Shown piece after piece: positions 37,087 through 63,893 of a stretch of 64,000 nucleotides of DNA (its first letter is position 1; every line of letters begins with the position of its first letter). Below the pieces are notes generated by a model that did no database searches, was not told the origin of the DNA, and was given only the letters and a program-made list of their open reading frames with translations. The stretch covers positions 4,786,314 through 4,850,313 of the forward strand of contig NZ_CP036271.1 of assembly GCF_007745175.1 (NCBI RefSeq). Reading direction: 5' to 3'. The translations under genes and the position numbers were made by a program. The stretch is from Caulifigura coniformis. Its GTDB lineage: Bacteria; Planctomycetota; Planctomycetia; Planctomycetales; Planctomycetaceae.

Positions 37087-38406
37087 TCAGGGAAAGTTGT
37101 ACTGCACCGTCGCCTGGATGCGATGGGCCTCGCCGAAGTCGCCGTTGTGCACTTCGTTCGACCCATAGAGATACTCGACCCCGAGAGTCGTGTTGTCGAT
37201 CGGCGCCCAGATCACATTGGCGGCCACGTAGTTCGCCAGTTGCGGAGTGTCTCCCGGGTCAGTGCTCTCGCGACGACGGACCGCGACGCTGTAGACACCC
37301 GTACTGCTCAACGTCTCCGTCCAGGCGTGCGTCAAGGCGAGGCATCCCCCCATGTGATCAACAGGTTCGACCTTGCCGGGCGAGGCCAGCCGCAGGTCAG
37401 AACCGCCTCGATACCGACCGAGACCGTTGCCCGCCACGAACTGGCCAATGATCTTGTCATCTTTTGTAGGCTTCAGGATGCCGACGATGTTGATCGCGCA
37501 GCCGAACCGATCCTGCTCGGAACCGGTATCCGGCCGGTAGGCGACATCGCGAAAGAGCCCGGCAACGAACCACTCGTAATACTCGCTCTTGTATTTCAGA
37601 TGAGTCGCGAGGTCAGGAATCGGCTGGGCCGGATCACCGGGGATTGTCGCCGTCACGACGTCGTCAACGGCTGTCGTCGGATTCTCAATTGACGTCGCCC
37701 ACTTCAGATTGTCGGTCAGCTCTTCCGTCCAGCGAAACTGCGCCTGTCGCTGCACAATGAACGCGATCGGACTTTCAAAATCCAGTGTCCGAGGGATGCC
37801 ATCCGGGTCCGTAAAGACGGTCCACGTCTGACCGGCAAGCAGGTGCCCGACCTCGGCATACGCGTGCCGGATTCGCAGTTGGTTCCCATTCGTAAAGAAG
37901 TCCGTTTCGACGAACCCGCGAATCGTTCCCCAGTCGCTTGGGGCCCGAACATCAAGATTGAGCCGCGTGGCCTTGGCCTGCATCAGCGTGTTCTGGCCGT
38001 CCGAACCGTCCACCGGAATGGTCGTCGGCACCCAGCGATCGGGCGTGCCGGCCGGCTGGAAGTCGTGGATGAAGTCCCCCTTGATGTACCCCCCGAACTT
38101 CCACCAGATCTCGGTGCCGGGAATCTGATTCGCCTTGTCGAACTTCGCCGACTCCGGCTTCGCGACGACCCAGTGATCGTGCAATGCAGACGTCAGGGCC
38201 TCAGCGAAACCGGCCTGCTCGACGCCTTCGCTGAAGTCCGTCGGACTCGAATGCGAGTTGGAAGAGAGGCTGTCAGCCCCGGCACCTGTGGAAGCCTGCA
38301 CTTCGGGCACCGGTGAAGGGCGCGGCGGAGCGTCATCGCTGCGCCCGGCGGCGGTGAGGGCACCGACGAAAGCAATCCAGATCGTGAGGACGCGCTTTCG
38401 AATCAT
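37087..38406 (-). CDS. DcaP-like outer-membrane porin
   Basis: 439 aa with a signal segment (about 5-24) and a polar linker with Ser/Pro-rich stretches to about 75. A beta-barrel body follows, starting at WKFGGYIKGDFIHDF and ending in an aromatic C-terminal strand (IQATVQYNFP) typical of outer-membrane proteins. The order resembles DcaP trimeric porins, which pass dicarboxylates. It lies 147 bases upstream of the Dcu-type gene on the same strand, so it plausibly supplies that transporter. A planctomycete outer-membrane location is inferred. Confidence 0.78.
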   Translation of the reverse strand: MIRKRVLTIWIAFVGALTAAGRSDDAPPRPSPVPEVQASTGAGADSLSSNSHSSPTDFSEGVEQAGFAEALTSALHDHWVVAKPESAKFDKANQIPGTEIWWKFGGYIKGDFIHDFQPAGTPDRWVPTTIPVDGSDGQNTLMQAKATRLNLDVRAPSDWGTIRGFVETDFFTNGNQLRIRHAYAEVGHLLAGQTWTVFTDPDGIPRTLDFESPIAFIVQRQAQFRWTEELTDNLKWATSIENPTTAVDDVVTATIPGDPAQPIPDLATHLKYKSEYYEWFVAGLFRDVAYRPDTGSEQDRFGCAINIVGILKPTKDDKIIGQFVAGNGLGRYRGGSDLRLASPGKVEPVDHMGGCLALTHAWTETLSSTGVYSVAVRRRESTDPGDTPQLANYVAANVIWAPIDNTTLGVEYLYGSNEVHNGDFGEAHRIQATVQYNFP

Positions 38407-38989
38407 GACCGTCGCAACAATGCGGAATGCTTGTCAGTGAGATGAAACGCGATTCCAGCAGCCATCGTCTAAAGCTGCAGCGATTCCTCGGCAATGTGAA
38501 GTGGCGTCTGGACCCAGTCGAGCGGCAGGTCTGGCCGATCTTCAACGAGTCCTTCGATTGGAATCGACCGCAAGCCCCGTGCGCACGACCATGGGGACGG
38601 CCGGACAGGCCTCAGGGGGTAGCTCACTTCATCGGCAGTCAGATTCGGGGTCTCGAGGATCACTTCGCGCATGATTTGGCCCAGTTATCCCCTTCGCGGG
38701 CATCGTCATACGTGGATCGAGAGAGATCAAATGCCATGCGACTTGAAGCAGTTTCATGCGGGCGTCAAACGTTTGATGACCCGGTGCAGGATGGCCGGCG
38801 AGGAACCTGACCCGGGCAGACTCGTAGTCGGTGACAAGCCGGTAGTTTTGCAGCCAGAGGCTCGCTCGCTCCATCTTCCGCCGGTTTCAGTGAGTTCGGA
38901 TGCGAGAACCGTCCTGGCCCCGGTGCAGTTGCGGCCTCGTGCAGGCCAAGGCGAGCATCATCGAAACGTGTCCCTGCAGGATCCCAGGT
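38407..38989. other. 583-base junction between chromosomal porin and packaging genes
   Basis: No intact gene is visible. It contains a decayed transposase fragment (see separate entry) and is the stretch where portal and capsid genes would be expected downstream of a terminase. It probably marks one edge of the integrated element or a deletion within it. Confidence 0.5.
38629..38880 (-). pseudogene. possible decayed transposase C-terminus
   Basis: The minus strand encodes RRKMERASLWLQNYRLVTDYE, close to the VERT-x-WL-x-RRL-x-DYE motif that carries the catalytic Glu in IS5/IS4-type transposases. An intact frame continues for about 60 residues but loses the expected family pattern, indicating frameshifts. 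The assignment rests on one motif. Confidence 0.35.
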
Positions 38990-40984
38990 TCAGAACCTTT
39001 GATTCGAGAACCCCCGACTGATTACGCCGTAGGGCCGGATCGGCGGCACATACACCTTCTGCTCCCGGATCAACCGCACGCCGGCCGCATGCCCGGCCAC
39101 GCAGGCGTTGTAGAGCGCATCGAACCAGTGATTCTGACGCCGGATCCGCTCCCAGCGTGTAACGACCCCTTTGCCCGCCACGAACTCCTCGGTCTTCCGT
39201 TCAGCCGTCAGGTGCTTGGCCAGCGACAGGTGTTCCTGCGGCGGCGCCTTGTAGAGCCGCAGGGCGCCGGGTTGATCGAGCGGACAACTGAGCCGCTGGT
39301 GCACCCAGGTCTTCCAGGCATCGGCGTCCATCTCGACCAGGTCGATCCGGTCAACGGGCTGCCGGTTCACGTGGTAGTCCTGTCCGATGTGGACGACGGT
39401 GGCTCCACGACTGGTGGGATGGTGATACGACTGGGTGCGCTGTTGGGTGGCGCCCCGTCCCACGGCCGGATGGAACGGTTGGCGACTCTCCCGACAGAAG
39501 GTGTAGACGACCGGCGTCATGTAGCCCGCATCCACGAGGACATGCACGGGCGTCAGACGTTTCTTGCCGGGTGAGGCCGCGAACTCCTGCGACACGGGCC
39601 AGCCATCCTTGACCAGATCCCGGAACTGTCGCAGCGACACCATGAGCGCCTGCTCGACTGCCAGGCTGTCCGAGGGAACCTCGATGCGGCCGTAGTCGAC
39701 CACATAGCAGGTGGCATCGGGCTTCCAGCCGACGACGATCCAGTGGCACAGATACTTACCCAGATCGATGGCCGCAGTCAGCACGGTGCAGTCGGGCGGC
39801 ACGAGGCCCCGCGGCCAGGTCGACTGCCGCAGCAGGATTTCTTCGGCGAGGAGGGTCGTCTCGTCCTGCCGGGAGGGGGCCACCGGCAGGCACCACACGA
39901 ACTGCCGCATCTCTTTCTCGGCGTTCTCTTCATCGGGGGACCGGGACGCCCGCCATTCGTCGGCCGCCAGATCGGCCGGCATCAGGAACAGGTTGTGGAT
40001 CGCGCTCCAGCGGAAGCCCAGGGTGTCAGTGGCGATCGCCTCGCCAGTCAGATTCCCCGCGTCATCGACCGACTGTCCCTGGTGGACCAGCCGGCCCTGT
40101 CGGTTGGCCTCCGTCCTCTGTTCGGTCGTCCAGGGTTCTCCACAGTCGGGACAGGCGAATTTTCCCAGGCTGCGGGCCTCGGCCTGGGTCGACGCCTCGG
40201 TCCAGCCGGTGAAGTGTTGTCGTTCCGGGAGCACGTCGTGCCGGCAATGAGGGCAGGGGAGCACGATCCGGCTGCGGGTTCCGGCGGTGTATTCCTGCCA
40301 GGTCCGGCCCTGCTCGGTCGAGAGGGTGCATTCCATGTAGATCCGCTTCCGGGCGCCATAGGCGCGGGTGCGGGCCTCGAGTTGCGTGATCTTGTCCGAT
40401 TCGCGGCTCGTCGCGCCGGCCTGATCCATGCCGTCGGTCTCGGTGATCACGACCACTCGGGACGTAAACCCGGCCCGGCTCTTATCGCCACCGCCGCCTG
40501 ACATGAACTTGAGTGTGGCGCCATTGCGGAACGGGATTGACTCCACGCGGCCACCTCGGCTCCCGCCGCCCCGGATCGGCATCAGGCTGCGGTAGCGGGA
40601 CTGCTCGATGACCGGCAGGATGTCTTCGCGCCACTTGTCGATGGCCATATCCATGTCGGGCAGGCCACAGATGACCGTCTCGCCAATCTCGAACAGGTGG
40701 TAAATGAGCGGGATGACGAAGCAGGCCAGCGTCTTCCCACTCTGGGTCGGGCCAGTGGCCACACACCGGTTCCAGCGGCCACTGTCGACCGCATCGAACC
40801 AGAGCCGGGTGTAGGGCTGGCGATCACAGCGGAACCGGCGTCCCTGGAAGGGACCGTCCGGAATGACGATCTCCGTCTCCGCAAACTGCCGCATCGAGCG
40901 CACGGTCCGGGCGCGGGACTGACGCAGGAACCAAAGGAGTTCGTCCCGGGCCCGGGCCTGCGTGGTCGACGGGTCAGCGGTCAC
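38990..40984 (-). CDS. phage terminase large subunit (GpA family)
   Basis: 664 aa, full length for lambda GpA-like terminases. The ATPase half has TGPTQSGKT (Walker A, near residue 78) and VVVITETDG (Walker B region, near 175). Zinc-knuckle pairs CPHC and CPDC lie between about 250 and 290. The nuclease half starts at DLGKYLCHWIVVGW (about 402) and continues with HVLVDAGY. The enzyme translocates DNA into a prohead and cuts concatemers. Its start overlaps the small-subunit stop by 4 bases. No portal gene follows in the direction of transcription. Confidence 0.88.
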   Translation of the reverse strand: MTADPSTTQARARDELLWFLRQSRARTVRSMRQFAETEIVIPDGPFQGRRFRCDRQPYTRLWFDAVDSGRWNRCVATGPTQSGKTLACFVIPLIYHLFEIGETVICGLPDMDMAIDKWREDILPVIEQSRYRSLMPIRGGGSRGGRVESIPFRNGATLKFMSGGGGDKSRAGFTSRVVVITETDGMDQAGATSRESDKITQLEARTRAYGARKRIYMECTLSTEQGRTWQEYTAGTRSRIVLPCPHCRHDVLPERQHFTGWTEASTQAEARSLGKFACPDCGEPWTTEQRTEANRQGRLVHQGQSVDDAGNLTGEAIATDTLGFRWSAIHNLFLMPADLAADEWRASRSPDEENAEKEMRQFVWCLPVAPSRQDETTLLAEEILLRQSTWPRGLVPPDCTVLTAAIDLGKYLCHWIVVGWKPDATCYVVDYGRIEVPSDSLAVEQALMVSLRQFRDLVKDGWPVSQEFAASPGKKRLTPVHVLVDAGYMTPVVYTFCRESRQPFHPAVGRGATQQRTQSYHHPTSRGATVVHIGQDYHVNRQPVDRIDLVEMDADAWKTWVHQRLSCPLDQPGALRLYKAPPQEHLSLAKHLTAERKTEEFVAGKGVVTRWERIRRQNHWFDALYNACVAGHAAGVRLIREQKVYVPPIRPYGVISRGFSNQRF

Positions 40985-43370: not shown

Positions 43371-44726
43371 TCATCGCATGGCCTCCTCACGAGGCTTCAT
43401 CGGGATCGGTGACTTTCCTGTCCGCTCCAGCACTCCCTTCTCGCCCGTGAACCGCTGGAAGCGATCGACGACGACATCGCAGTACAGCGGGTCCAGTTCC
43501 ATCAGGAACGCCTTCCGTCCCGTCTGCTGAGCGCCGATGAGCGTCGAGCCGCTCCCTCCAAACAGGTCGAGGATGTTCTCGCCCGGCCGCGACGAGTACT
43601 GCATGGCCCGCACAGCCAGCTCGACCGGCTTCTCGGTGAGGTGCACCATCGACTGCGGGTTCACCTTTTTCACGGACCAGACGTCCGTGGCATTGTTCGG
43701 CCCGAGATAGGTGTGGCCCGCGCCCTCCTTCCAGCCGTAGAAGCACCACTCGTGGTCCCCCATGAAGTCTTTGCGGGTGAGGACGGGGTGCCCCTTGTGC
43801 CAGATGATGGCCTGCGAGAAGTACAGGGCATGTTTCTTCAGGAACGGCGGGTAGTTGGCGCAGTTGGCATAGCCGCCCCAGATATAGAACCCGCGACCGG
43901 GCTCCAGAACTCGGGCCGCATTGCCGAACCAGGCGTCCAGCAATCGATCGAACTCCTGGTCCGACACGAAGTCGTTCGCCAGTGGCCGGTCTTTGGCCCG
44001 CAGCTTCTTCCCGGTCGGCTTTGATTTCCCCGGGTGACGGGCCAGATCGAGCGACTGGTGGTGTGTCCGCTTCTTCGGCTGGGCCTCGAAGGAACTGTTG
44101 CCGGCCGCGATGGCGTTGTTCGACCGCGGCTCGACCTTCACGTTGTAGGGTGGGTCGGTGTTCACCAGGTGGATGGTCTGGCCACCAAGCAGGAGATCCA
44201 GATCCCCCGCCTTGGAACTGTCCCCGCACAGCAGCCGGTGGTCACCGAGGATCCACAGATCGCCCGGCTTCGTGGTGGCCTCATCTGGCGGCGCCGGCAC
44301 CTCGTTGGGATCGCACTGGCCATCCTCGACGTCTGGGTTCAGGAGCTTGGCCAGTTCGTCCGCATCGAAACCCAGCAGGTCCAGGTCGTAGTCCATGGCC
44401 CTCAGGTCCATGACCTCGAGGCCGAGGAGTTCCGGGTTCCAGTCGGCGATGGTCGCCGTCTGGTTGTCGGCGATGCGGTAGGCCCGGATCTGGGCGGCCG
44501 TCAGTCCCGTGGCCACGTGCACCGGGACCTTGGCGAGTCCCAGCTTCTCGGCCGCCTTGAGCCGCGTGTGCCCCACGATGATGACGCCCGCCTGGTCCAC
44601 GACGATCGGCTGCCGGAACCCGAACTCCTGGATCGAGCGGGCGACCGCATCGACCGCCTGGTCGTTCAGGCGCGGGTTCTTCTCGTAGGGCTTGGGTTTG
44701 GTGACGGGCCACAGTTCGATCTTCAT
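43371..44726 (-). CDS. ParB-domain / N6-adenine or N4-cytosine DNA methyltransferase fusion
   Basis: 451 aa. Residues 5-100 are a ParB/Srx-type nuclease-like domain (NPRLNDQAVDAVARSI, then GHTRLKAAEKLGL). Residues 165-435 are a beta-class amino-methyltransferase: NTDPPYN (motif IV, about 189-195) precedes DLFGGSGSTLIG (motif I, about 386). It transfers methyl from SAM to adenine N6 or cytosine N4. This fusion is common in phages and mobile elements and usually lacks a cognate nuclease. It is divergent from fic across a repeat-rich 106-base gap. The ATG at 44726 has GGAGAG upstream; TTG at 44729 is the alternative. Confidence 0.9.
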   Translation of the reverse strand: MKIELWPVTKPKPYEKNPRLNDQAVDAVARSIQEFGFRQPIVVDQAGVIIVGHTRLKAAEKLGLAKVPVHVATGLTAAQIRAYRIADNQTATIADWNPELLGLEVMDLRAMDYDLDLLGFDADELAKLLNPDVEDGQCDPNEVPAPPDEATTKPGDLWILGDHRLLCGDSSKAGDLDLLLGGQTIHLVNTDPPYNVKVEPRSNNAIAAGNSSFEAQPKKRTHHQSLDLARHPGKSKPTGKKLRAKDRPLANDFVSDQEFDRLLDAWFGNAARVLEPGRGFYIWGGYANCANYPPFLKKHALYFSQAIIWHKGHPVLTRKDFMGDHEWCFYGWKEGAGHTYLGPNNATDVWSVKKVNPQSMVHLTEKPVELAVRAMQYSSRPGENILDLFGGSGSTLIGAQQTGRKAFLMELDPLYCDVVVDRFQRFTGEKGVLERTGKSPIPMKPREEAMR

Positions 44727-44745
44727 CAAGCTCTCCTGCTCTGCG

Positions 44746-44832: not shown

Positions 44833-46002
44833 ATGCCACGCAAATCTGGTGCATACCGCACGTTCCGAGTGGGTGGGGAGACGTTTCGCGCCTTTACTCC
44901 GCTGCCACTGCCGCCCAGATCGCCCGCACTTCGAATCGAAGGTGATCTTGCGAGGCGACACGACCGCGCGGCGGCTTCGCTGCAACGCCTGTCTGTGGCT
45001 GCGATGACGGTCCCGAGCCTGCAATGGTTTCTGTACGGATTCGTCCGCAAGGAGGCGGTGATCTCGTCGCAGATCGAAGGGACGCAGGCCACCTTTGAAG
45101 ACCTGATCACTTTCGAGGCCACCCGGCAGACGGACCGCGACGATGATGTCGAGGAGATCTGCAATTATGTCGCAGCACTCGAGTATGCCCGTGCCGAAGT
45201 CGCTCGCCCCAAAGGCTTGCCGATCTGCACGAGGCTGCTGTGCCAGATCCACAAGAGGCTGATGCACGGAGTACGCGGCGCCGAAAAGCAACCGGGCATC
45301 GTCCGCACGTCCCAGAACTGGATTGGAGGTTCGCGCCCCGGCAACGCCATGTTCGTTCCTCCGCCGCCGGAGAACGTTCCCGAAGCTCTTGCCTTGCTCG
45401 ATCGCTGGGTTCATCAGGAGGACGGGTTCCCGCCCCTGGTCCGTGCCGGCCTGGCTCATGTCCAGTTCGAGACCATTCACCCGTTTCTGGATGGGAACGG
45501 TCGTGTCGGCCGACTTTTGATCACACTCCTCGTTGAACACTGGAAGTTGCTGAGCGCTCCGCTGCTGTACCTCAGCCTGTCGTTCAAGCGACATCGCGAG
45601 GAGTACTATCGCCGTCTGTCTGCCGTTCGGACCGACGGCGATTTCGAAGGATGGATCGGATTCTTTTTGGATGCTGTCCGAGAGGCGGCCGACGACGCAG
45701 TGGAGGCGGCGACCCGGGTATTCAGGTTGCTCAACGACGATCGTCGTCTCGTCACCAGCCACAAGGCCGCAACAGTGACGTCGATCCGACTGTTCGATCA
45801 CCTCCCTGAAAACCCGGCTATCACCGTTGCGATGGCGGCGGAACTGTTGGGCGCAACGAAGCCCACAGCAATTAAGGCCGTACAGGCCCTCGTCCACGCA
45901 GGCGTGCTGGAAGAAAGCACCGGCAAGAAGCGGGACCGCATGTACCGTTACCACCGTTATCTCTCCCTGCTCGCGGAAGACACGGAAGTGCAGAAGCCAT
46001 AG
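44833..46002 (+). CDS. Fic-domain protein (probable AMP transferase)
   Basis: 389 aa. The catalytic motif HPFLDGNGRVGR is at 216-227 with the His, Asp, Asn and Arg residues all present. The inhibitory helix motif SSQIEG is at 78-83, placing it in class II (self-inhibited from the N-terminal side). A flap strand lies near NAMFVPPPPE (171-180). The C-terminal 100 residues form a winged-helix-type region (AAELLGATKPTAIKAVQALV). Such proteins attach AMP to protein hydroxyls. No separate antitoxin is needed for class II. It may be a regulator or toxin of the mobile element. Confidence 0.92.
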   Translation: MPRKSGAYRTFRVGGETFRAFTPLPLPPRSPALRIEGDLARRHDRAAASLQRLSVAAMTVPSLQWFLYGFVRKEAVISSQIEGTQATFEDLITFEATRQTDRDDDVEEICNYVAALEYARAEVARPKGLPICTRLLCQIHKRLMHGVRGAEKQPGIVRTSQNWIGGSRPGNAMFVPPPPENVPEALALLDRWVHQEDGFPPLVRAGLAHVQFETIHPFLDGNGRVGRLLITLLVEHWKLLSAPLLYLSLSFKRHREEYYRRLSAVRTDGDFEGWIGFFLDAVREAADDAVEAATRVFRLLNDDRRLVTSHKAATVTSIRLFDHLPENPAITVAMAAELLGATKPTAIKAVQALVHAGVLEESTGKKRDRMYRYHRYLSLLAEDTEVQKP

Positions 46003-46039
46003 GTCACGGTCGGTGCTGCTCCTTCAGCACGACTCTTCC

Positions 46040-46381
46040 GGGACCTTCGGGACCTGTGGGACCTTGCCTCCCCGGTCCAATACACACGCGTAAAAACACA
46101 TGTGTATTTCTCTCGCGCACACATAGCTTTGGGTGAAAAGGTCAAGAAGGTCCTGAAGGTCCCGTCTGTTGAGGCCGGCCAACGACTTACGACGCGGGAC
46201 CTGAGCGGGACCTCGGGACCTTGACCTGTGCAATCCAACGCGCGACCGTTCCGGTTGATGAAGAACGGTTGATCAGCGACCAGGTCGTGAGCCGTCTGTC
46301 GACCGGTGATGGGCGCGCAGCCATTGAATCGTCCCGGAGGTCCCGCCCCGCCGCAGCCCTGCAGATGCTTCATCGGGACCT
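46040..46381. repeat. GGGACCT repeat cluster (possible replication iterons)
   Basis: The heptamer GGGACCT occurs at 46040, 46049, 46058, 46196, 46207, 46215 and 46375 (first bases). Its inverse AGGTCCC occurs at 46157 and 46338, with one near-copy at 46148. The first three copies are spaced exactly 9 bases apart. The cluster fills the 367-base gene-free gap between the stops of fic and the primase-helicase gene; the last copy overlaps the end of that gene. ACACATGTGT, a perfect palindrome, lies in the middle. A replication-origin role is inferred. Confidence 0.6.
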
Positions 46382-49015
46382 CTCCAGGACATAGGTCTTG
46401 TTGCTACCGCTGCTCCGGCCCCTCAGCGTCACGAGGTCGCCGGTGGGCGCGACGAACCGCTCGTTCGAAAAACGTGTGAGCAGCCCGCCCATCTTCGTCG
46501 CCTGCGATTTGGCCGTGCCGCCCCCCAGTTCTGCGGATAGGAGGCTGTGGCTCTGAGCCAGGCTGAGCCATTCCGAGGCCGTGGAGGGCGCAGTCGCCCT
46601 CGCAATTGCGGCCTGAACGAGTTGTTCGAAGTCCGCACGGACCGGATCCAGAGTGCGTTCGATCTCCTCAACGTTCGCTAATAACCCTGTACGGCCATTG
46701 GCCTCCAGAACCCCTCCCACGATCCGTCCCCAGCCCTTCTTGTTGAACCGGGTCTCGACGTTCGACAGGGGCCGGCCGGCCGCCTTCCAGGCTTCCACCA
46801 TGCCGATCAGTTCGCCCAGAAGCTCAAGCCGATACCTGGCGGCATACTCTTCAGGATCGTGCAACTGGAAGCGACGCTTTCTGGGGTCGCCTTCGAGGAA
46901 TAGACGGATGGGGACACACCGCGTGATCAGGTCGCGTCCCACCTCAGGCGTATTGGCCGTGATGCAGACGATGTGGGCGTTCTCGGCCCGGATCTCCGAC
47001 GAGTGCCCCAGCTTGCGGAACGACAGCACCGGATCGGTGATGCACCGTTCCAGGCAGGGGGAATCGATGACCTTCGCTCCCCGCTGGGTCTTGGCGTTGT
47101 CGATGACGAGCGTCGTCTGCCCCGTCCGGACCCGGGCCGCAATGCGTTTCTCGAACTCCTCGTCATTGTCGTTGTACGTGCAGGTCTCGACCTGACGGGC
47201 GTCACGCAGGATGGCCAGCAGCTGTGCCAGCACCGACTTCCCCAGGCTCGGCTGGTTCCCGGTGATCAGAGCCGCGGGCTTCGATCCGACGAAGTGGGAG
47301 ATCAGCACCACCGTCAGGAGCATTCCGAGGTAATTCACGCGGTCGACTTCGCTCTGGAAGCAGAACTCCCGGAGCAGGCGGTCCAGATGTTCCGTTCCAG
47401 GGACAGGGGAAACGGCCGGCCCGGCGTAGAGGATCCCCGTGGCCCGGTCGTAGCCCGGAGTGACGAGCCGGAAGTCCGGATCGAAGACCGGCGCCTTTGT
47501 AAACAGCCGAATGGCCGGTAGCCGCGCCAGTTCGGTCGGGTGATGCAGCCAGGTGTTTCCGTACTGCGGCGGCAGCGGTTTGAACTCCTGGCGGAAGGAG
47601 TCCTCGCCCACATGGACGATGGCCACTTCCGCCTGGCTATTGAGCAGACCTGCCAACTGGGCCGCGTCCTCCAGCGGTTCCAATGTCTCGTTGTGGAACC
47701 GGACAGGCGTTCCGGTCCTGGTGAAGGTGTTCCTGGCCGCCACGAAGACGTCGGTGATCTGTTTCATCACGCTGGCCACCGGTTGGGCGTCGTCGATCAC
47801 GACGACGTCGTCGGCCGCGTCGAAGCGTTCAACAACGGGCGGTGTTTTCAGACCGGCGTGGGAGTCGGCAGCCTTTTCGGCCCGCTCAAGTGTCTCCACG
47901 CGAACGACTTGCTCCGCCTTCGACCAGGTTCGCTGGAAGTAGTCCTCGCCCCGTTCGGCGAACTTGCCGACGTCCGCCACCTGGGGCCAGATGTCGTGGG
48001 ACTGGTAGCCCTTGCGGATGGCCGCCGCGCACAGAGCGAAGTCCGTCTCGGAACGCGAGCCGGCGGGAGCCACTCGGCAGGCGTTGATCCGGTCGGACAG
48101 TTTGGCGGCCCCGGCCGATGTGAGTTTCCGAGGCGCGGGGAGCGGGATGGCCGCAATCTGCTGGCGGCGTTTCGCTGTCGGAGACTCAGCTGCAAATCGC
48201 TCGAACGTCGAGAGCGAATACCTCTCGTGCGACTGGTGCACGATCGATGTAGGAACCGGTGCTTGCCCGGACCGTTCGTCCTTGCGGTTCATGGTGCCCG
48301 GCACTCGCAGCAGCCGGGCCAGGTCCTGGGTATGGTCGCCGCCAATTGCCTCAGCCACGCCGGCCAGGATGTCCTGGAACTGCAATGCCTTGGGGCTGAG
48401 CGGCGGCACATTGCGTCTCAGCCGATTGCCTGTCTTTCGGTCATGGAGATCGATTCGTTCCCCGTCATCGACAAAGTGCTCGAGGCGGCGTTTGCCGACC
48501 TGGGTGTGGTCGACCCATTCTGACACGACCTGCGGAGGAGGTCCGACGTCATCAATGAGATACGGCTCATCCAGCAGCCAGTACAGATGCACACCGTGAC
48601 CCGAGTTCACCCCCATCGAGGGCGTCGGGAGGCCGGCAGCCTGGCAGCGTTCGAACGCCTCGGGAGGAGCGATGTGATCGAGATCGGCCCAGAGGCACCG
48701 GGCCGTGCGAATCTGCCACGACTGGTCATAGCCTTCCGGACCGACCCGTGGGCAGACGCCGTAGAAACAGTTGGCTCGCTCCGCTGCTGCAGCGCGGAGA
48801 TTGAGCAGGAGCGTCACTTCGCCCAATGCACGAAGTGGCCGACACCAGGTCTCTTTGAACAGCACCCGGGAATGCCGCCGGCCGAACTGGGACCAAATCT
48901 CCGTAGGCCGGAACAGCAGATGGTCTTCTGGCGCAAACAGCGTCTGGAAGAACGCCAGCGCTGTGGCTGCGAGAGGCAGGTCCTGAGATGCCTGGGACGG
49001 CTCAACGGGCGCCAT
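46370..49015 (-). CDS. primase-polymerase / superfamily 3-like helicase
   Basis: 881 aa. The N-terminal archaeo-eukaryotic primase half shows CLWADLDH (metal Asp pair, 111/113), NSGHGVHLYWLLDEP (near 137), and RLLRVPGTMNRKD (near 265), a hallmark of RepB/PrimPol enzymes. The C-terminal half has Walker A GNQPSLGKS (about 589) and an Asn sensor in VCITANTPEVGRD (near 705). It probably primes and unwinds element DNA. The ATG at 49015 directly follows the TOPRIM stop (one base between), which indicates coupling; the longer open frame to 49210 overlaps that gene. Confidence 0.85.
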   Translation of the reverse strand: MAPVEPSQASQDLPLAATALAFFQTLFAPEDHLLFRPTEIWSQFGRRHSRVLFKETWCRPLRALGEVTLLLNLRAAAAERANCFYGVCPRVGPEGYDQSWQIRTARCLWADLDHIAPPEAFERCQAAGLPTPSMGVNSGHGVHLYWLLDEPYLIDDVGPPPQVVSEWVDHTQVGKRRLEHFVDDGERIDLHDRKTGNRLRRNVPPLSPKALQFQDILAGVAEAIGGDHTQDLARLLRVPGTMNRKDERSGQAPVPTSIVHQSHERYSLSTFERFAAESPTAKRRQQIAAIPLPAPRKLTSAGAAKLSDRINACRVAPAGSRSETDFALCAAAIRKGYQSHDIWPQVADVGKFAERGEDYFQRTWSKAEQVVRVETLERAEKAADSHAGLKTPPVVERFDAADDVVVIDDAQPVASVMKQITDVFVAARNTFTRTGTPVRFHNETLEPLEDAAQLAGLLNSQAEVAIVHVGEDSFRQEFKPLPPQYGNTWLHHPTELARLPAIRLFTKAPVFDPDFRLVTPGYDRATGILYAGPAVSPVPGTEHLDRLLREFCFQSEVDRVNYLGMLLTVVLISHFVGSKPAALITGNQPSLGKSVLAQLLAILRDARQVETCTYNDNDEEFEKRIAARVRTGQTTLVIDNAKTQRGAKVIDSPCLERCITDPVLSFRKLGHSSEIRAENAHIVCITANTPEVGRDLITRCVPIRLFLEGDPRKRRFQLHDPEEYAARYRLELLGELIGMVEAWKAAGRPLSNVETRFNKKGWGRIVGGVLEANGRTGLLANVEEIERTLDPVRADFEQLVQAAIARATAPSTASEWLSLAQSHSLLSAELGGGTAKSQATKMGGLLTRFSNERFVAPTGDLVTLRGRSSGSNKTYVLERSR

Positions 49016-49016
49016 G

Positions 49017-50177
49017 TCACGCCTCCTCGTCGGACGAGGGATGGTGCCCGGCACGCAGTCGCCCAAGTGTCGCACGGAACAGAGACCGTTCCTCAAGCTC
49101 AATCGTCTGCAGCCGCTCCCACTGTTCCGGCGGGATGTGTCGTTCGATGGCCGCACGGACCCGGTCACGGATCTCCGGTGCCGGGAGTGCGTCCAGTTCA
49201 GCGGCCGCACTGCCGTGGGCCTCGATGAACGCGCGGTAACGCTTGTCCGACTTCTTGGGCTCCAGCTTCAGGAGATCGAAGTCGTCAAAGTCCGCGGCGT
49301 TGACCCCCAGTCGGTGCCAGCGAAACGCATGATGGCAGTACGTGGAGAGTTTGGACCGGATGTCTCGTTCGAGATCGAACCCCGAGGGATCGAAGTCGCC
49401 CAGGTAGTACACGTCGATCGGCTTCTCGATCCGGTTCCAGGTCGAGGCGATCTCGTGGGCAAACGACAGCGACGCATAGCCACGGATCGGTGATAGCGTG
49501 ACGTCGAACTCCTCTGTGATGGGCGACACCACGCCGGCCATCGCGTCTTTCTCGACGATGACGTGGACATACTCGGGCAGTTCGGCCCAGAAGTCCTTCC
49601 GATACGCCCGCTGCACCGTGTCGAGAAACTCAGGGATCCCGGTCCACGACGACGGCTTCTGGCTGCTGCGGACGTTGTCGACCAGCCATTCGAAAGGGAC
49701 GACGCCCGTTTCCCGGAGCCGCGTCATGACCCGGCCCATCCGGGAATAGTGCTCCTTGTCCGTGCTGGGGAGGAACCCGGCCGAGACGACCCGGTAGAAC
49801 AGGCCGCGGAGTGTCAGCGGGTGCTCGTCACAGGCGATGTCGGTGGCGACGATCGCCAGCGCCAGGTTCTTGCCACGAAACCCGGCCGAGGCGATCCGTT
49901 CCAGCGAGTCGCGGGTCAACCGGGTCGTGAAGCCCCGATCCTCGATGGAGTTCAGAACCGAATCGAGGTTCGTTTTGATGCGATGTTGGCGAAGTGCCCG
50001 TTGTCGGACGAGTTGCTTGACCGTTCCGGGCTCACCTCTGGCCGCGAGGTTGCGCATCTCCTGGGCGATCTCCTCGTCCGTCATGCCGACCATCGCGAGC
50101 ATTTGCGCAACGGTGTCTTCGCCCAACTCCTCGAGGAGCGCGTCGTGATCGGCCGTCGAGATCGCGGAGTGGCTCAT
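49017..50177 (-). CDS. Spo11/TopoVI-A-like protein with TOPRIM domain
   Basis: 386 aa. A winged-helix segment at about 120-165 (LTLRGLFYRVVSAG and MGRVMTRLRETGVVPFEW) has a Tyr at 128 near the place of the cleavage Tyr in TopoVI-A. A TOPRIM domain follows: the Glu in IVEKDA (209), then DFDPSG (D261, D263). This is the domain order of topoisomerase VI subunit A and Spo11, yet no B-subunit GHKL ATPase is encoded nearby. It may nick or break DNA during replication or packaging. It overlaps the next upstream gene by 4 bases. Confidence 0.78.
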   Translation of the reverse strand: MSHSAISTADHDALLEELGEDTVAQMLAMVGMTDEEIAQEMRNLAARGEPGTVKQLVRQRALRQHRIKTNLDSVLNSIEDRGFTTRLTRDSLERIASAGFRGKNLALAIVATDIACDEHPLTLRGLFYRVVSAGFLPSTDKEHYSRMGRVMTRLRETGVVPFEWLVDNVRSSQKPSSWTGIPEFLDTVQRAYRKDFWAELPEYVHVIVEKDAMAGVVSPITEEFDVTLSPIRGYASLSFAHEIASTWNRIEKPIDVYYLGDFDPSGFDLERDIRSKLSTYCHHAFRWHRLGVNAADFDDFDLLKLEPKKSDKRYRAFIEAHGSAAAELDALPAPEIRDRVRAAIERHIPPEQWERLQTIELEERSLFRATLGRLRAGHHPSSDEEA

Positions 50178-50452: not shown

Positions 50453-50491
50453 GGGTAGGTGGTCCTGAGAATCTGGCACTCCCTCCTACCC
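50453..50491. promoter_or_regulatory. inverted repeat between sigma-factor stop and next start
   Basis: GGGTAGG (50453-50459) and CCTACCC (50485-50491) form a perfect 7-bp stem around a 25-base loop. On the minus strand the upstream arm carries the sigma-factor stop and GGAGGG, and the downstream arm abuts the next ATG. A fold would sequester the ribosome site, so translational control is possible. Confidence 0.4.
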
Positions 50492-51073
50492 GTGGTGTCT
50501 GGGATCTGCCGGCGGTTTCCTGGTCGGATTCAGGCTGTCGAACGATTTCCTGAGACGTCGGATGTGGTCCTGAAGCGTTGACCGCGCCACTCCCTGTCGA
50601 CGGGCCATCTCGCTGATCGATTCGGCTGAGAGGCCCCGGCATAGAGCACGATCCTGGTCGGACATCCGATTGACGATCTCCCGGACGTCGAACCGGATCT
50701 CCGGCTGGTCGGACGGGGCGGCCGCGCCGCGATGCACCCGTCTGAAATGGTCGGCCTGAGACACCGCCCCGCCCATGTCGCTGCCATCCATCAGGTCTTG
50801 GCGGCGACTGCGGAGGTATTTCCCGGCCAGCGTGCGGCAGCGGCGGTCAATCACGGTCTCAAGGAACGGTTTCCAGGCCCCGCGTTCAGGCCGGTAGGCT
50901 TTTGACCGCTTGAGAACTTCGAGCCGGAGCGTCTGTGCGATGTCGTCTTCGTCCGACTTGCAGAGCCCCAGCTGAAGGGCCATTCGCCGGGCCTTCCAGC
51001 GGATCAGATCGCCAGCGTAGCCCTTGGTGGGGTCCTCGGCACTGGGACCTCCGTCGCCTCCCTGGAAAGCCAT
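50486..51073 (-). CDS. sigma-70-family RNA polymerase sigma factor
   Basis: 195 aa. The region-2-like part is at about 20-90 (DEDDIAQTLRLEVLKRSKAY then ERGAWKPFLETVIDRRCRTLAG). Region 4 is at about 130-180 (REIVNRMSDQDRALCRGL, then ISEMARRQGVARSTLQDHIRRL) with a helix-turn-helix. The linker carries a polar insertion. It is upstream of, and in line with, the replication genes, so it may direct host RNA polymerase to element promoters. The ATG at 51073 has AAGGGA 7 bases upstream. Confidence 0.8.
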   Translation of the reverse strand: MAFQGGDGGPSAEDPTKGYAGDLIRWKARRMALQLGLCKSDEDDIAQTLRLEVLKRSKAYRPERGAWKPFLETVIDRRCRTLAGKYLRSRRQDLMDGSDMGGAVSQADHFRRVHRGAAAPSDQPEIRFDVREIVNRMSDQDRALCRGLSAESISEMARRQGVARSTLQDHIRRLRKSFDSLNPTRKPPADPRHHG

Positions 51074-51300
51074 TCCATGTCCCTTTTTCACGATGCCCAG
51101 GCTCGGATTTAGCCTGCTCGTGAAGAGGTGGCTGGCGCTGATGTGGCGCAACAGATTTTTCCGGGCAATTTGCCATTCTTCTGTCGCAATCTAGTGAGGC
51201 AAGTCCTTTTCGTATGGCGACTTAGCGTAAATGCCCGTGCGTCAGGAGGAGCACCGTCCCGCGCCACATTCCACAACGAGTAGCGTTGATTTTCTCAACA

Positions 51301-52727: not shown

Positions 52728-52958
52728 ATGCCCCGAACAGATTCACTGAGCGTTATCGCTTCACTATTCGCCCGCGGTTACCTCCGCCTACTGGACTCCG
52801 CACCCGCGGCCGCGATCCAGAAACCGAATCTCGCCTCGGTTTCGACATGCCTTGAGGTGTCCGCCGAGAGTCGCCTCAGTGTGCCCACGGGTTTACCGCC
52901 CGGAGAGTCCGGGGTCCCGCAGCGCGACTATGAACAGGAGGCAGAGGCATGGCTGTAG
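52728..52958 (+). CDS. small hypothetical protein of the recombinase module
   Basis: 76 aa. The ATG at 52728 has AGGGAGAG 9 bases upstream, and the last 10 bases overlap the DUF2924 start. The segment SVIASLFARGYLRLLDS resembles small proteins I recall beside DUF2924-recombinase pairs elsewhere; the recall is not verified. Function unknown. Confidence 0.5.
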   Translation: MPRTDSLSVIASLFARGYLRLLDSAPAAAIQKPNLASVSTCLEVSAESRLSVPTGLPPGESGVPQRDYEQEAEAWL

Positions 52959-53461
52959 ATGTAGATGTGGATGTGGATGTGGATGTGACCGCCCAACTGG
53001 CGGCGCTGGAGACGATGACCGTCGGCCAGTTGAAAGCGAAGTACGAAGAGGTGTTCAACGAGCCGGCCCGGAGCGGCAACAAACAGTGGCTCTTCAAACG
53101 CACCGCCTGGGGAATCCAAGCCCGCGCGTTCGGGGGGATCTCCGAACGGGCTCGCCAACGGGCGCTCGAGATCGCCAACGAGGCTGATCTCCGCTTGAAG
53201 GCCCCGAAGAACTTCGTCTTCGCGACCGCGACGAAACCGGCATCGGCCCCGAAGCCGGCCGACGATGCCCGGCTCCCCAAGCCCGGCACGGTGCTCACCC
53301 GAACGTACAAGAAGCAGAAGGTCTCCGTCGAAGTCCTGCGGGACGGGTTCCTATACGAGGGGAAAACCTATCCCTCCCTCTCGGCGGTCGCCAAAGTGGT
53401 CACCGGTTCCCATTGGAACGGGTTCCTGTTCTTCGGCCTCCAGAAGCAGGGAGGCCAGTAA
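52949..53461 (+). CDS. DUF2924-family protein
   Basis: 170 aa; GGAGG lies 8 bases before the ATG. After an unusual VD-repeat N-terminus, residues 16-75 match the DUF2924 core (LKAKYEEVFNEPARSGNKQW, then WGIQARAFGG). Residues 105-170 form a small basic domain (GTVLTRTYKKQKVSVEV, then YPSLSAVAKVVTGSHWNG). The family accompanies large serine recombinases in prophages and plasmids and may act as an accessory DNA-binding factor. Its TAA stop shares one base with the recombinase ATG. Confidence 0.82.
   Translation: MAVDVDVDVDVDVTAQLAALETMTVGQLKAKYEEVFNEPARSGNKQWLFKRTAWGIQARAFGGISERARQRALEIANEADLRLKAPKNFVFATATKPASAPKPADDARLPKPGTVLTRTYKKQKVSVEVLRDGFLYEGKTYPSLSAVAKVVTGSHWNGFLFFGLQKQGGQ
52955..52984 (+). 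repeat. five tandem GTRGAT hexamers at the DUF2924 start
   Basis: GTAGAT twice and GTGGAT three times, in frame, encoding five Val-Asp pairs directly after Met-Ala. The copy number could change without breaking the frame. Confidence 0.9.
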
Positions 53462-55005
53462 TGGCTCGACGGAAGGAACCGAACAGCCCAAACACCACGT
53501 CGAAGTCGATCCGCTGCGCCATCTACACCCGGAAGAGCACGGACGAAGGCCTCGAAAAAGACTTCAACAGCCTCGACGCCCAACGGGAGGCGGCCGAGGC
53601 GTATATCGCCAGCCAGATCGGGGAGGGTTGGATCTGTCTTCCGGACCGGTACGACGACGGCGGCTTCACCGGCGGCAACCTCGACCGGCCGGCGCTCAAG
53701 AAGCTCATCGCCGATATTGAAGCCGGGAAGATTGACTGCGTGGTTGTCTACAAAGTCGACCGACTGTCCCGGTCGCTGACCGACTTCGGTCGCCTGGTGG
53801 AGGTGTTCGATAAACGCGGGACATCGTTCGTCTCGGTGACGCAGCACTTCAACACGACGAACAGCATGGGGCGTCTGACGCTCAATATTCTGCTGTCGTT
53901 CGCCCAGTTCGAACGAGAGATCATTTCGGAACGGACACGGGACAAGATGGCGGCCGCCCGCAAGAAGGGGAAATGGGCCGGCGGCCCGCCGATGCTGGGC
54001 TACGACGTCGTGAACCAGAAATTGGAGGTCAACGAGCCCGAGGCGAAACAGGTCCGGGAGGTCTTCGAATTGTATCTCGACCGCAGGTCGCTGCTGACGG
54101 TCGCCCAGGAACTCAACGACCGCGGCTCGACCACCAAACGCTGGAATACAAAGGCCGGCACGGAGAAGGGCGGCTTGAGGTGGACCAAGGACAACGTCCT
54201 CGCGCTGCTGCGGAACGTCGTCTACATCGGCAGGGTTCGGCACAAGGCCGAGACCTATCCCGGAGAGCACGTCGGCATCGTCGACCAGGCGGTATTCGAC
54301 GCGGTCCAGGCGCTTCTCTCGGACAACGGCCGGACGAACCCAAACGGCCCCCGCGGGTCCGACGGCGCCATTCTCTGTGGCCTGGTCCGCTGTCGATCCT
54401 GCGGGTGCGCGATGACGCCCAGCTGCTCGGTCAAGAAGAACCGCCGCTACCGCTACTACGTCTGTGTGAATGCCCAGAAGCGCGGCTATCGCGAGTGCCC
54501 CATGCCCAGTGTCTCAGCCGAGGTGCTGGAGACCTTCGTCGTGGACCAGATCCGGGAGATCGGACGAGATCCCGACCTCGTCGCCGCGACGTTCGCCGAG
54601 GTGCAACGGCAGGCGGAGGAAAGGCTCGAGTCGCTCAGGAACGAAGCCGACCGTCTCGAGGCCCAGATCGCCGGGATCTACCGACAACTGGCCCAGGCGG
54701 CCTCCCAGCCCGACCGACTGGCCGCCCTGAACGCCGAAGTGGACGACCGTCAGCGCGTTCTGGCCCAGATCCGGCTCCAGATCGAGACAACCGGCCGCCA
54801 GAACGCCCACGTTGGCGACGTGCGCCGGGCTCTGGCGGAGTTCGACGGGGTGTGGGGGGCGCTCACCCGACGCGAACAGGGCGAACTGTTGCGGCACGTG
54901 CTCGAAGGGGTCGAGTTCGACGGAAAGTCGGAAGAGGTGACGCTGGCGTTCCGGTTCGGGCAGCTGCCGGCTGAGGACAACCAAATTGTGGAGGAAGCGG
55001 CGTGA
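53461..55005 (+). CDS. large serine recombinase
   Basis: 514 aa. The resolvase domain (about 18-165) has the nucleophile Ser in YTRKSTDEG and the Arg-rich YKVDRLSRS and FEREIISERTRDK blocks. The recombinase domain runs from about 175 to 290. A zinc ribbon (CRSCGCAM near 320, later C...CP) and a coiled-coil region (about 380-450) complete it. Such enzymes integrate and excise phages and islands at short attachment sites. It is the central gene of a four-gene plus-strand operon and overlaps the HTH gene by 4 bases. Confidence 0.93.
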   Translation: MARRKEPNSPNTTSKSIRCAIYTRKSTDEGLEKDFNSLDAQREAAEAYIASQIGEGWICLPDRYDDGGFTGGNLDRPALKKLIADIEAGKIDCVVVYKVDRLSRSLTDFGRLVEVFDKRGTSFVSVTQHFNTTNSMGRLTLNILLSFAQFEREIISERTRDKMAAARKKGKWAGGPPMLGYDVVNQKLEVNEPEAKQVREVFELYLDRRSLLTVAQELNDRGSTTKRWNTKAGTEKGGLRWTKDNVLALLRNVVYIGRVRHKAETYPGEHVGIVDQAVFDAVQALLSDNGRTNPNGPRGSDGAILCGLVRCRSCGCAMTPSCSVKKNRRYRYYVCVNAQKRGYRECPMPSVSAEVLETFVVDQIREIGRDPDLVAATFAEVQRQAEERLESLRNEADRLEAQIAGIYRQLAQAASQPDRLAALNAEVDDRQRVLAQIRLQIETTGRQNAHVGDVRRALAEFDGVWGALTRREQGELLRHVLEGVEFDGKSEEVTLAFRFGQLPAEDNQIVEEAA

Positions 55006-55469
55006 AGACGACCGGTAGGGTGACGAAGAAACTCGCGCTCCGGGCAGGGACCCGCGGGAAGAAGGTGGCGGGTGAGCCGGTGTTGCGACCCGCTGCCACG
55101 ACTGGTCGCGTGCCGCGGATTACCAAGCTCATGGCGCTGGCGATCAAGTTCGACCAGATGATCCGCGATGGAGTCGTGAAAGATCAGGCGGAGCTGGCGA
55201 GGCTGGGATTCGTCACCAGAGCGAGGGTCACTCAGATCATGAACCTGCTGAATCTCGCAGCGCCAATCCAAGAGAGCCTTCTCAGCATTGCCCTTCCTAG
55301 TCGGGGGAGAGATCGAATCACCGAACGCCAGCTGCGTCGGCTTCTGGAATTCAACGAGTGGTCTGGTCAATCGAGCGTTTGGTCCACGCTCGCTAACGTC
55401 GCATCTTGGGCCCAGGGCGCTGGCAGTGCATCGAGGGGGGCACGACCACAAAGTCGTCGACGCTCGTGA
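55002..55469 (+). CDS. recombinase-associated HTH protein
   Basis: 155 aa. The core RVPRITKLMALAIKFDQMIRD (split here) and DQAELARLGFVTRARVTQIMNLL is a helix-turn-helix that commonly follows this type of recombinase. Family resemblance ends around residue 130 (SVWSTLA); the last 25 residues are Arg/Ser-rich read-through. They overlap the convergent HNH gene by 103 bases, so the original stop may have been lost at an integration or rearrangement junction. It could be the recombination directionality or accessory factor. Confidence 0.75.
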   Translation: MKTTGRVTKKLALRAGTRGKKVAGEPVLRPAATTGRVPRITKLMALAIKFDQMIRDGVVKDQAELARLGFVTRARVTQIMNLLNLAAPIQESLLSIALPSRGRDRITERQLRRLLEFNEWSGQSSVWSTLANVASWAQGAGSASRGARPQSRRRS

Positions 55470-57995: not shown

Positions 57996-61060
<3,065 letters not shown>

Positions 61061-61064
<4 letters not shown>

Positions 61065-62100: not shown

Positions 62101-62568
62101 TTAGTCTTTGGAGGGCAATGAGAGGATCACTTCGGTGAACCGGTCGGTGATGGATTCAAGGTCCTGAAGTGACAATAGGGCTGTCCAGTTTCGCTCCCCA
62201 TCCTTCTTCCCATTCTTAGTGTTCCAAACTTCGACTCCTGTGATTCGACCTCCTCGCTCTGTGAACGTCATGTTGCAGTGAGCGATGCTGTTGCGAAGAA
62301 GGGCCATCAGCTTTCGGAGGTCCTTCGGCTCGGGCATTTCACCGGTCACCACCGGCGCGGGCCAGCCGGCGTCTCGCAGCTCATCAAGCGGAGTCTGAGG
62401 AATTCTGTCGTAGTAGTGCTCCTTCGGGAGCACGAGCAGGCCCAGCATTGAATTGATGAGTTGTGTGACGTCATACACTTCGTCTCCTGCAGCTCGGCGT
62501 TCGCGAATGACAGCAAGGTTTCGCTGCGTCCGTTTCGCAAAATCCTTCACAAGGTCCTCGTAGTACAT
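62101..62568 (-). CDS. HEPN-family (pEK499-p136-like) probable RNase
   Basis: 155 aa. Four-helix layout with the HEPN catalytic motif RNSIAH (R92-x4-H97) near the end of the third helix. LINSMLGLLVLPKE (about 37-50) is the conserved first-half helix of this HEPN subgroup. Such proteins cut RNA in toxin or abortive-infection systems. It shares one base with the hsdS stop and precedes DUF4268 by 41 bases. No nucleotidyltransferase (MNT) antitoxin is visible. Confidence 0.82.
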   Translation of the reverse strand: MYYEDLVKDFAKRTQRNLAVIRERRAAGDEVYDVTQLINSMLGLLVLPKEHYYDRIPQTPLDELRDAGWPAPVVTGEMPEPKDLRKLMALLRNSIAHCNMTFTERGGRITGVEVWNTKNGKKDGERNWTALLSLQDLESITDRFTEVILSLPSKD

Positions 62569-63893
62569 CAGCTGGTCCTCTCGACGAGTCGCTCCGCGTC
62601 CGGAATCCGCAGTTCGCCCGAGATCAACTTCGGCAGAAGGGTATCGCGGATCTCCCCCAACGTCCCGATCTCTTCCTGCGAAACTTCGATTCGATCCTGC
62701 AGGGGAACGAAAAGCCTTCCGTACTGCTCAACCAGTGGCCGAGGCGGCCGGACGAACCGCGGTTTCTGTAGACCGTCGATCGGCAACATGTTGACCGTGG
62801 TGCCGTTGCTATGTCCCGCCACAAGATCGTGAAAGACGGGCGTGCGCAGCAACAAATAAGTGAACCACTCCGGCAGGTAGCTCTGGGACTTCCGCGACAG
62901 CTTGTACGTGTGGTGACTGAAAATGCCCCTAGCCCCGAACCGTTTCGGAACAATCGCGGGGAAGCCGATCAGCAGGTGTTCGAAGCCCTGCTCTGTGTTC
63001 GTGACGATGACATCGCCAGGCGCAAGTAGGTGCTGCGGCTTGAATACTCCGTCGTACCACTTGATGCCCGCGTGTTTGTAACCGCCGCCTTCCAGCACGG
63101 AGTTGAGGTTGTGCATCGGTAGTCCGAAGCCGGCCTCGCACAGATGCTGCCCCTTGTAGCTGAGGCCTTTGCTGGCAGTAACTTCGGCGGCCAGACAGGT
63201 CTCGGACCACCCGGTCGGAATCGCCCCAATATCGGAAACATCGAAGGTGTCTGGGAAGTGCGCCGCAACTGAGTCCGGCATCGTCGGGCAGGCGGTGCGG
63301 CTGACTTGTTCGTTGGTCCAGTCGGGGTGCTCGCGGCGGATGGCGGCCTTGGCTTTCACCGGGTCGAAGTCGACGAACCAGCTCTTGAAGATTGCCCGCG
63401 CCATCGCCTCCAGCGTCTGATTCCGCCGCCGGTTCAGCTCGATCTTGTCGTCCAACGCGCCCAAAACTTCGGCAATCGAGCGTTGAGTTTTGATTGGCGG
63501 AATTGGGACTTCGTGCCGCTTCAGGTGCTCGATAGTGATCTGATGCTGCGCGGACCCTGTAATGAGGTGGCGACGGTCTGAGGCCTTCATCGCCCAAAAA
63601 AGATAATTCGTGTCACACTGCTCCGGATTTCGGGGCACGATCGTTATGGCGAGATTGGTGACCCAACTCCTCGGCGGGGTCATGTGAACGTTGCCGGTGC
63701 CTCCGACTCCGCGGCAAGTAATTGAAACCTGCGGCTGTTCAAACATGTACTCTGAGTGGTAGCCAACAATTCCGTAGCCACTCCAGACCGGATATCCGAG
63801 GGCGTCCAACTCACTTTTTTTTACGATCTTTCCGTACCTGAGATCGCAAAACTCGCCCAGTCGCAATAGGACCGATCCGGCGCTACTCGCCAT
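62568..63893 (-). CDS. hsdS: type I restriction enzyme, specificity subunit
   Basis: 441 aa with two target-recognition domains separated by conserved helices. The first conserved region is ALDDKIELNRRRNQTLEAMA (near 150), then FKSWFVDFDPVKAKAA. A second TRD runs from about 230 to 390, and a closing helical repeat is DRIEVSQEEIGTLGEIRDTLL. The two TRDs define a bipartite DNA target that cannot be read from sequence alone. It overlaps the hsdM end by 11 bases. Confidence 0.92.
   Translation of the reverse strand: MASSAGSVLLRLGEFCDLRYGKIVKKSELDALGYPVWSGYGIVGYHSEYMFEQPQVSITCRGVGGTGNVHMTPPRSWVTNLAITIVPRNPEQCDTNYLFWAMKASDRRHLITGSAQHQITIEHLKRHEVPIPPIKTQRSIAEVLGALDDKIELNRRRNQTLEAMARAIFKSWFVDFDPVKAKAAIRREHPDWTNEQVSRTACPTMPDSVAAHFPDTFDVSDIGAIPTGWSETCLAAEVTASKGLSYKGQHLCEAGFGLPMHNLNSVLEGGGYKHAGIKWYDGVFKPQHLLAPGDVIVTNTEQGFEHLLIGFPAIVPKRFGARGIFSHHTYKLSRKSQSYLPEWFTYLLLRTPVFHDLVAGHSNGTTVNMLPIDGLQKPRFVRPPRPLVEQYGRLFVPLQDRIEVSQEEIGTLGEIRDTLLPKLISGELRIPDAERLVERTS

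Follow-up and report, generated by a model that had tools for sequence, protein, structure and literature searches.

The gap between positions 46003 and 46372 of the window (the whole 64-kb stretch of DNA that was analysed) is very probably the replication origin, or at least a cis-acting replication region, of an integrated virus-like element. The support for this reading is comparative and structural. The position and the layout of a repeat array are kept in relatives of the element while the repeated motif itself changes from lineage to lineage, the motif is enriched over both the genome and shuffled sequence, and the protein predicted for the adjoining gene resembles the SaPI5 primase-helicase in its helicase part and ends in a winged helix. 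An origin or a copy-control site had already been suggested in the first-pass annotation of this DNA, and these observations support that suggestion.

Results

The heptamer GGGACCT occurs in nine exact copies, seven direct and two inverted, within 342 bp (46040-46381), in full agreement with the count in the first-pass annotation. The direct copies start at 46040, 46049, 46058, 46196, 46207, 46215 and 46375 and the inverted ones at 46157 and 46338. The first three form a tandem triplet on the plus strand (46040-46064) and do lie in the exact 9-bp phase reported earlier, and a second plus-strand triplet (46196-46221) is spaced by 11 and 8 bp. Opposite the first triplet there is an inverted tandem pair on the minus strand (46148-46163), also in 9-bp phase, which consists of AGGTCCT at 46148, a near copy with one mismatch, and AGGTCCC at 46157. 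On the sense strand of the primase gene the triplet is an R set on one flank of a core and the pair is an F F set on the other flank, and in relatives, too, an F F pair precedes the core and an equivalent R R (R) set follows it. Two exact copies are outlying, an inverted one on the minus strand (46338-46344) and a direct one on the plus strand (46375-46381). The latter falls in the final codons of the primase-helicase gene, whose stop codon is at 46370-46372, and outlying sites close to this stop codon were also found in relatives.

The possibility, allowed for in the first-pass annotation, that the heptamer is equally dense elsewhere in the genome is ruled out: GGGACCT has 727 copies on both strands of the 6.76-Mb genome, so that about 0.04 copies would be expected in 342 nt at this density, compared to the nine seen. 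No heptamer of any sequence exceeded six copies in the other 342-nt tiles of the window, where the typical maximum was two, and when the gap was shuffled 2000 times with its dinucleotide composition kept, no heptamer reached more than four copies. The genome has four GGGACCT-N1-5-GGGACCT pairs and two GGGACCT triplets, all of them within the cluster, and no second GGGACCT cluster was found elsewhere in the 64-kb window. GGGACCT is less common genome-wide than the reversed control word, which has 1339 copies, and it may be avoided outside the array.

The gap is bordered by two convergent genes, a plus-strand Fic/DOC family gene (44833-46002, assigned by Pfam) and the minus-strand primase-helicase gene, whose 3' end it adjoins. 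Two open frames, of 138 and 69 aa, run across it on the minus strand, and if these were genes the cluster could consist of coding repeats. Neither frame had a meaningful match in any relative (best E 0.05), and the gap is therefore most likely non-coding, in line with the earlier statement that no recognised protein is encoded there. The spacings of 8, 9 and 11 bp and the mixed orientation of the repeats would break any reading frame, and the clustering is far beyond chance in both the shuffles and the genome count, which leaves coding repeats or a chance cluster with practically no probability. The alternative of an origin inside a coding sequence, which had been held open in the first-pass annotation, is likewise not supported, as the ORFs of the gap lack conservation and no reading frame is kept by the motif and its spacing.

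The location between convergent genes would also suit an array which serves only in transcription control of the replication operon, as an operator or a terminator, and initiators often regulate transcription as well. However, no promoter-like site and no terminator-like match were found in the gap (the single terminator-like match sits in the primase gene), and the array is 3' of the gene rather than at its promoter. A role in transcription alone is thus very improbable; a secondary regulatory role may exist. A search of Rfam found no RNA family, and GC skew showed no switch at the array. The region 46030-46170 folds better than its shuffles (z -3.9), as inverted iterons do automatically.

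Between the inverted tandem sets lies a core of 82 bp (46065-46146) with 49% GC in the GC profile, compared to about 62% around it. It contains an alternating purine-pyrimidine tract, ATACACACGCGTA (46080-46092), which at 13 nt is modest (shuffle p 0.0075), and it is a candidate melting region. In relatives the corresponding cores, with borders placed by hand from the site positions, are 57-108 bp long and have 36-73% GC. An alternating purine-pyrimidine run was significant (shuffle p<0.01) in the cores of 18 out of 30 loci, and the longest run averaged 15.4 nt in cores against 6.0 nt in control windows.

The gene next to the array (46370-49015, minus strand) is assigned, based on PHROG matches and a fold model, to a protein combining an AEP primase, an SF3 helicase and a winged helix, which is presumed to be the initiator. 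The ORF is open to 49210, and a probable start, MAPVEP, is found at 49015. Pfam gave no significant family or domain for the 946-aa protein; PHROGs linked it to DNA polymerase/primase families. A structure model was built from 21 aligned sequences, with a mean pLDDT of 78. In fold comparisons of this model the primase half matched cyanophage S-2L PrimPol (Z 17.8) and RepB' (Z 15.2), and the helicase half, residues 462-938, matched the SaPI5 primase-helicase (Z 13.3) as well as the NrS-1 and poxvirus D5 helicases; since the rmsd of the multidomain alignment is large, these matches support a shared architecture and not a detailed similarity. Taken together, the PHROG and fold matches place AEP primase and SF3/D5-type helicase domains in one chain. 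The C-terminus of the model, where the terminal domain takes up about residues 850-946, has a winged-helix pattern, with helices at 878-887, 892-895 and 900-913 and strands within 918-945. The modelled protein thus has the make-up of an initiator with a self-loading helicase and a C-terminal DNA-binding domain, as in SaPI/PICI elements, and binding of the sites by this domain is predicted.

Relatives were drawn from 149 related genomes, 37 genome loci and 31 IMG/VR loci. The window protein as a single query gave no matches in viral and genome contigs, and alignment-based scans of these contigs did find relatives. Most close relatives, in planctomycete genomes and in IMG/VR viral contigs, have an analogous array directly 3' of the primase-helicase stop codon. 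Conservation in related elements, on which the first-pass annotation had made its reading depend, was therefore found for the position and the layout of the array, with a different motif. In the shared layout, tandem sites mostly 9-10 bp apart are followed by a core of the length given above and then by tandem sites in the opposite orientation, and the offsets of the sites match across independent lineages (about -10F, 10F, 20F, 41R, 89F, 98F, core, 2-3 R). The site sequence is specific to the lineage: AGGTCCC in the window and, among the sites of relatives, AACGTTCGG, AACGTCCGC, GAGGTTCAC, AAGGTTCGGCA, AACGTTCGGCA, AACGTTCCGCA, AACGTCCGCA, AACGTCTGCA, AAGGTCTG, AGGTCCACC and GAGGTTCACC. The DNA of the gap is otherwise unconserved.

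For repeated 8-mers, 35 of the 46 close loci have the region 3' of the primase-helicase gene among their top 5%, and in 27 of the 46 this region exceeds every other window of the locus, although many viral loci are near-duplicates and the independent events are fewer than these counts. Exact detection of the FF-RR pattern misses the window, because one of its inverted sites has a mismatch. With the tests used, no such array showed up in five close relatives (L039, L091, L092, L093 and L095), nor did one in most of the distant helicase homologues. Two very distant IMG/VR loci, L135 and L137, have 9-bp phased arrays, TTGGGACA and GGACACAT, with three sites on each side of the core. In L040 the array is 1.2 kb away, past intervening sequence. 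In L043 a transposase-like sequence comes after the first sites and more sites occur about 1.1 kb further on, as if the array had been split by an insertion.

The array comes after the primase-helicase gene whichever gene follows it, and this bears on whether it could serve as a site of partition, or as an array that the neighbouring ParB_N-methyltransferase recognises. That gene is near (43371-44729, Pfam), separated from the array in the window by the Fic/DOC gene, and in L035, L036 and L038 it follows the array more directly. In L049-L053, however, the array persists before another replication-type gene, exonuclease/polymerase-like by our reading, and in all of these loci it is directly 3' of the primase-helicase gene, so that a function tied to the methyltransferase is highly unlikely. 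L035 and L036, which belong to one genome but differ in their sites (ACGTTCC in L035, AGGTTCG in L036), also have a short ORF starting MWQWKKRIER after the array, about 390 nt past the primase stop codon. The same comparison weakens the case for a packaging (cos/pac) site of the virus. The element has terminase genes at a distance of about 4.6 kb, but in relatives the array tracks the primase-helicase and not the terminase, and its arrangement, with inverted sets that flank a core past the 3' end of an SF3 helicase gene, matches that of known origins; packaging accordingly has very little probability as the function of the array.

The relatives also point to the part of the protein that reads the sites. 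In L040, L041, L087 and L089 the N-terminal halves are unrelated to that of the window and the site AA(C/G)GTTCGG is kept, whereas L044, L097, L129 and L130 share the N-terminal half alone and have either no array or another motif. As the motif goes with the C-terminal and not with the N-terminal half, sequence comparison points to the helicase/winged-helix half as the probable reader. A Mantel comparison of motif and protein distances was significant for all domains and did not single out the C-terminal one, and for this reason it was left out of the evidence on the reading domain. In L129 and L130, both from IMG/VR, the primase half is as in the window and the rest of the protein has an NrS-1-type HBD and D5_N/DUF5906 domains, which is apparent domain shuffling between primase and helicase halves.

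Alternatively, the repeats might mark on the template where the AEP primase half begins its primers, as in the NrS-1 primase-polymerase (TTTGGTTA), instead of being double-stranded sites for the winged helix. The NrS-1 primase recognises an 8-nt motif (PMC8718748), L055 combines an NrS-1-type domain with the motif CGGGGTTA, and the priming sites of SCCmec have been compared with iterons. Nevertheless, the motif is kept with unrelated primase halves and is not kept where the primase half alone is shared, and the inverted tandem sets with 9-10 bp phasing on both flanks of the core fit double-strand binding and not primer starts. Priming at the repeats is consequently unlikely. In phage NrS-1 itself the next gene begins within a few bases of the primase gene, and the gap upstream holds AT-rich words only.

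Discussion

If the array is an origin, its action may be pictured as follows. The winged helix would read the iterons, and the inverted tandem sets would seat two helicase rings, one on each side of the core. ATP-driven action of the rings would melt the core, helped by the alternating purine-pyrimidine tract and the locally lower GC content there, and replication in both directions would begin from primers made by the fused primase. The additional outlying copies may also serve for titration of the initiator and for copy-number control.

The closest parallels are the origins of SaPI/PICI elements such as SaPIbov1, SaPI5 and EcCICFT073. In these the ori is immediately 3' of rep, and an AT-rich region presumed to melt has a set of iterons on either side (PMC6092414, PMC7581432). 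Rep recognises the sites through its C-terminal domain, primase and helicase are sometimes fused (PMC6092414, PMC7581432), and the pri-rep-ori segment of PICIs drives autonomous plasmid replication (PMC6092414). Similarly, the array of the window starts inside and continues directly after the 3' end of the primase-helicase gene, its iteron sets 46040-46064 and 46148-46163 flank the 82-bp core, and the helicase half has the SaPI5 fold. Unlike the SaPI/PICI origins, the window has a core that is not AT-rich, and the cores of this group are often alternating purine-pyrimidine; the motif is another one, the element includes viral genes, terminase among them, and the present arrays are found in planctomycete proviruses and viral contigs.

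In P4, crr lies directly 3' of the gene for the alpha primase-helicase and contains 8-bp type 1 repeats, paired at a spacing of 9 bp and in both orientations. The repeats of the window are likewise 9 bp apart, in both orientations and directly 3' of the primase-helicase gene, but the P4 type 1 motif is GGTGAACA/TGTTCACC and that of the window GGGACCT. P4 has in addition a second region (ori) 4.5 kb away, to which nothing corresponds among the GGGACCT copies of the window; a second origin may have been lost with missing parts of the element. Read as an origin, the array works like those of PICI and P4, yet it is set apart by the lack of an AT-rich core, the non-P4 motif and the virus genes of its element.

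Other replicons share the arrangement in part. In pRN1 the origin, a stem-loop of roughly 100 nt, is 3' of orf904, an AEP primase - SF3 helicase - winged-helix gene (PMC4234260). The window resembles this type of origin, and that of phage BIP-1, in having its putative origin 3' of such a gene, and differs in that its unit is a repeated 7-9 bp site, whereas no iterons are recognised in the pRN1 type. In Listeria phage PSA (L148, 6300-6605), whose protein has D5_N and Pox_D5 domains, the gap after the 3' end of the primase-helicase gene is taken up by short inverted repeats, AACTATCCACC, and in the Methanosarcinales virus vir525 (L146, 5480-6100) the same holds for the gap after the 3' end of the primase gene, with short inverted repeats TTGCGGGTAT, although motif and host are different from those of the window. 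No published origin mapping was found for PSA or vir525 in searches of the open-access literature. Earlier work confined the SaPI/PICI origin design to satellites, and the arrays of PSA and vir525 suggest that the design is wider.

It is conceivable, and we propose it tentatively, that viruses and proviruses of bacterial and archaeal hosts, and not just the satellites PICI and P4, share as a general replicon design an iteron origin located 3' of a self-loading AEP-primase/SF3 helicase. Site and C-terminal winged helix would then change in step to give different incompatibility types, and the AT-rich melting region would, in GC-rich hosts, give way to an alternating purine-pyrimidine core prone to form Z-DNA. 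Planctomycete proviruses, IMG/VR contigs, a Listeria phage and the record of an archaeal virus all have comparable arrays, which suggests that these origins belong to a wider family often overlooked in annotation. With this layout, origins could be predicted from sequence for viruses with AEP-SF3 proteins, and such origins could serve in plasmid vectors for planctomycetes. The relatives provide a natural series of pairs of sites and winged helices for working out rules of recognition, and the alternating purine-pyrimidine cores raise the question of how such origins melt in GC-rich genomes.

The element itself contains a gpA-type terminase (38990-40984) and a small terminase subunit, a topoisomerase-like gene (49017-50177), a sigma-factor-like gene (50486-51151) and, at its right, a serine recombinase with a DUF2924 neighbour (52949-55469). 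As host-type porin and dicarboxylate transporter genes are directly left of the terminase, within 37087-40984, and none of the ORFs tested was recognised as a head or tail gene, the provirus looks truncated, and the origin may for this reason be inactive in this genome. A direct-repeat search for attachment sites gave weak matches only, and the flanking porin, sought for an empty-site comparison, had no match in a genome of the same genus. Beside the element there is a type I restriction-modification system, with an HsdR-like gene (57996-61064), an HsdS-like gene (62568-63893) and a DUF4268 gene in between.
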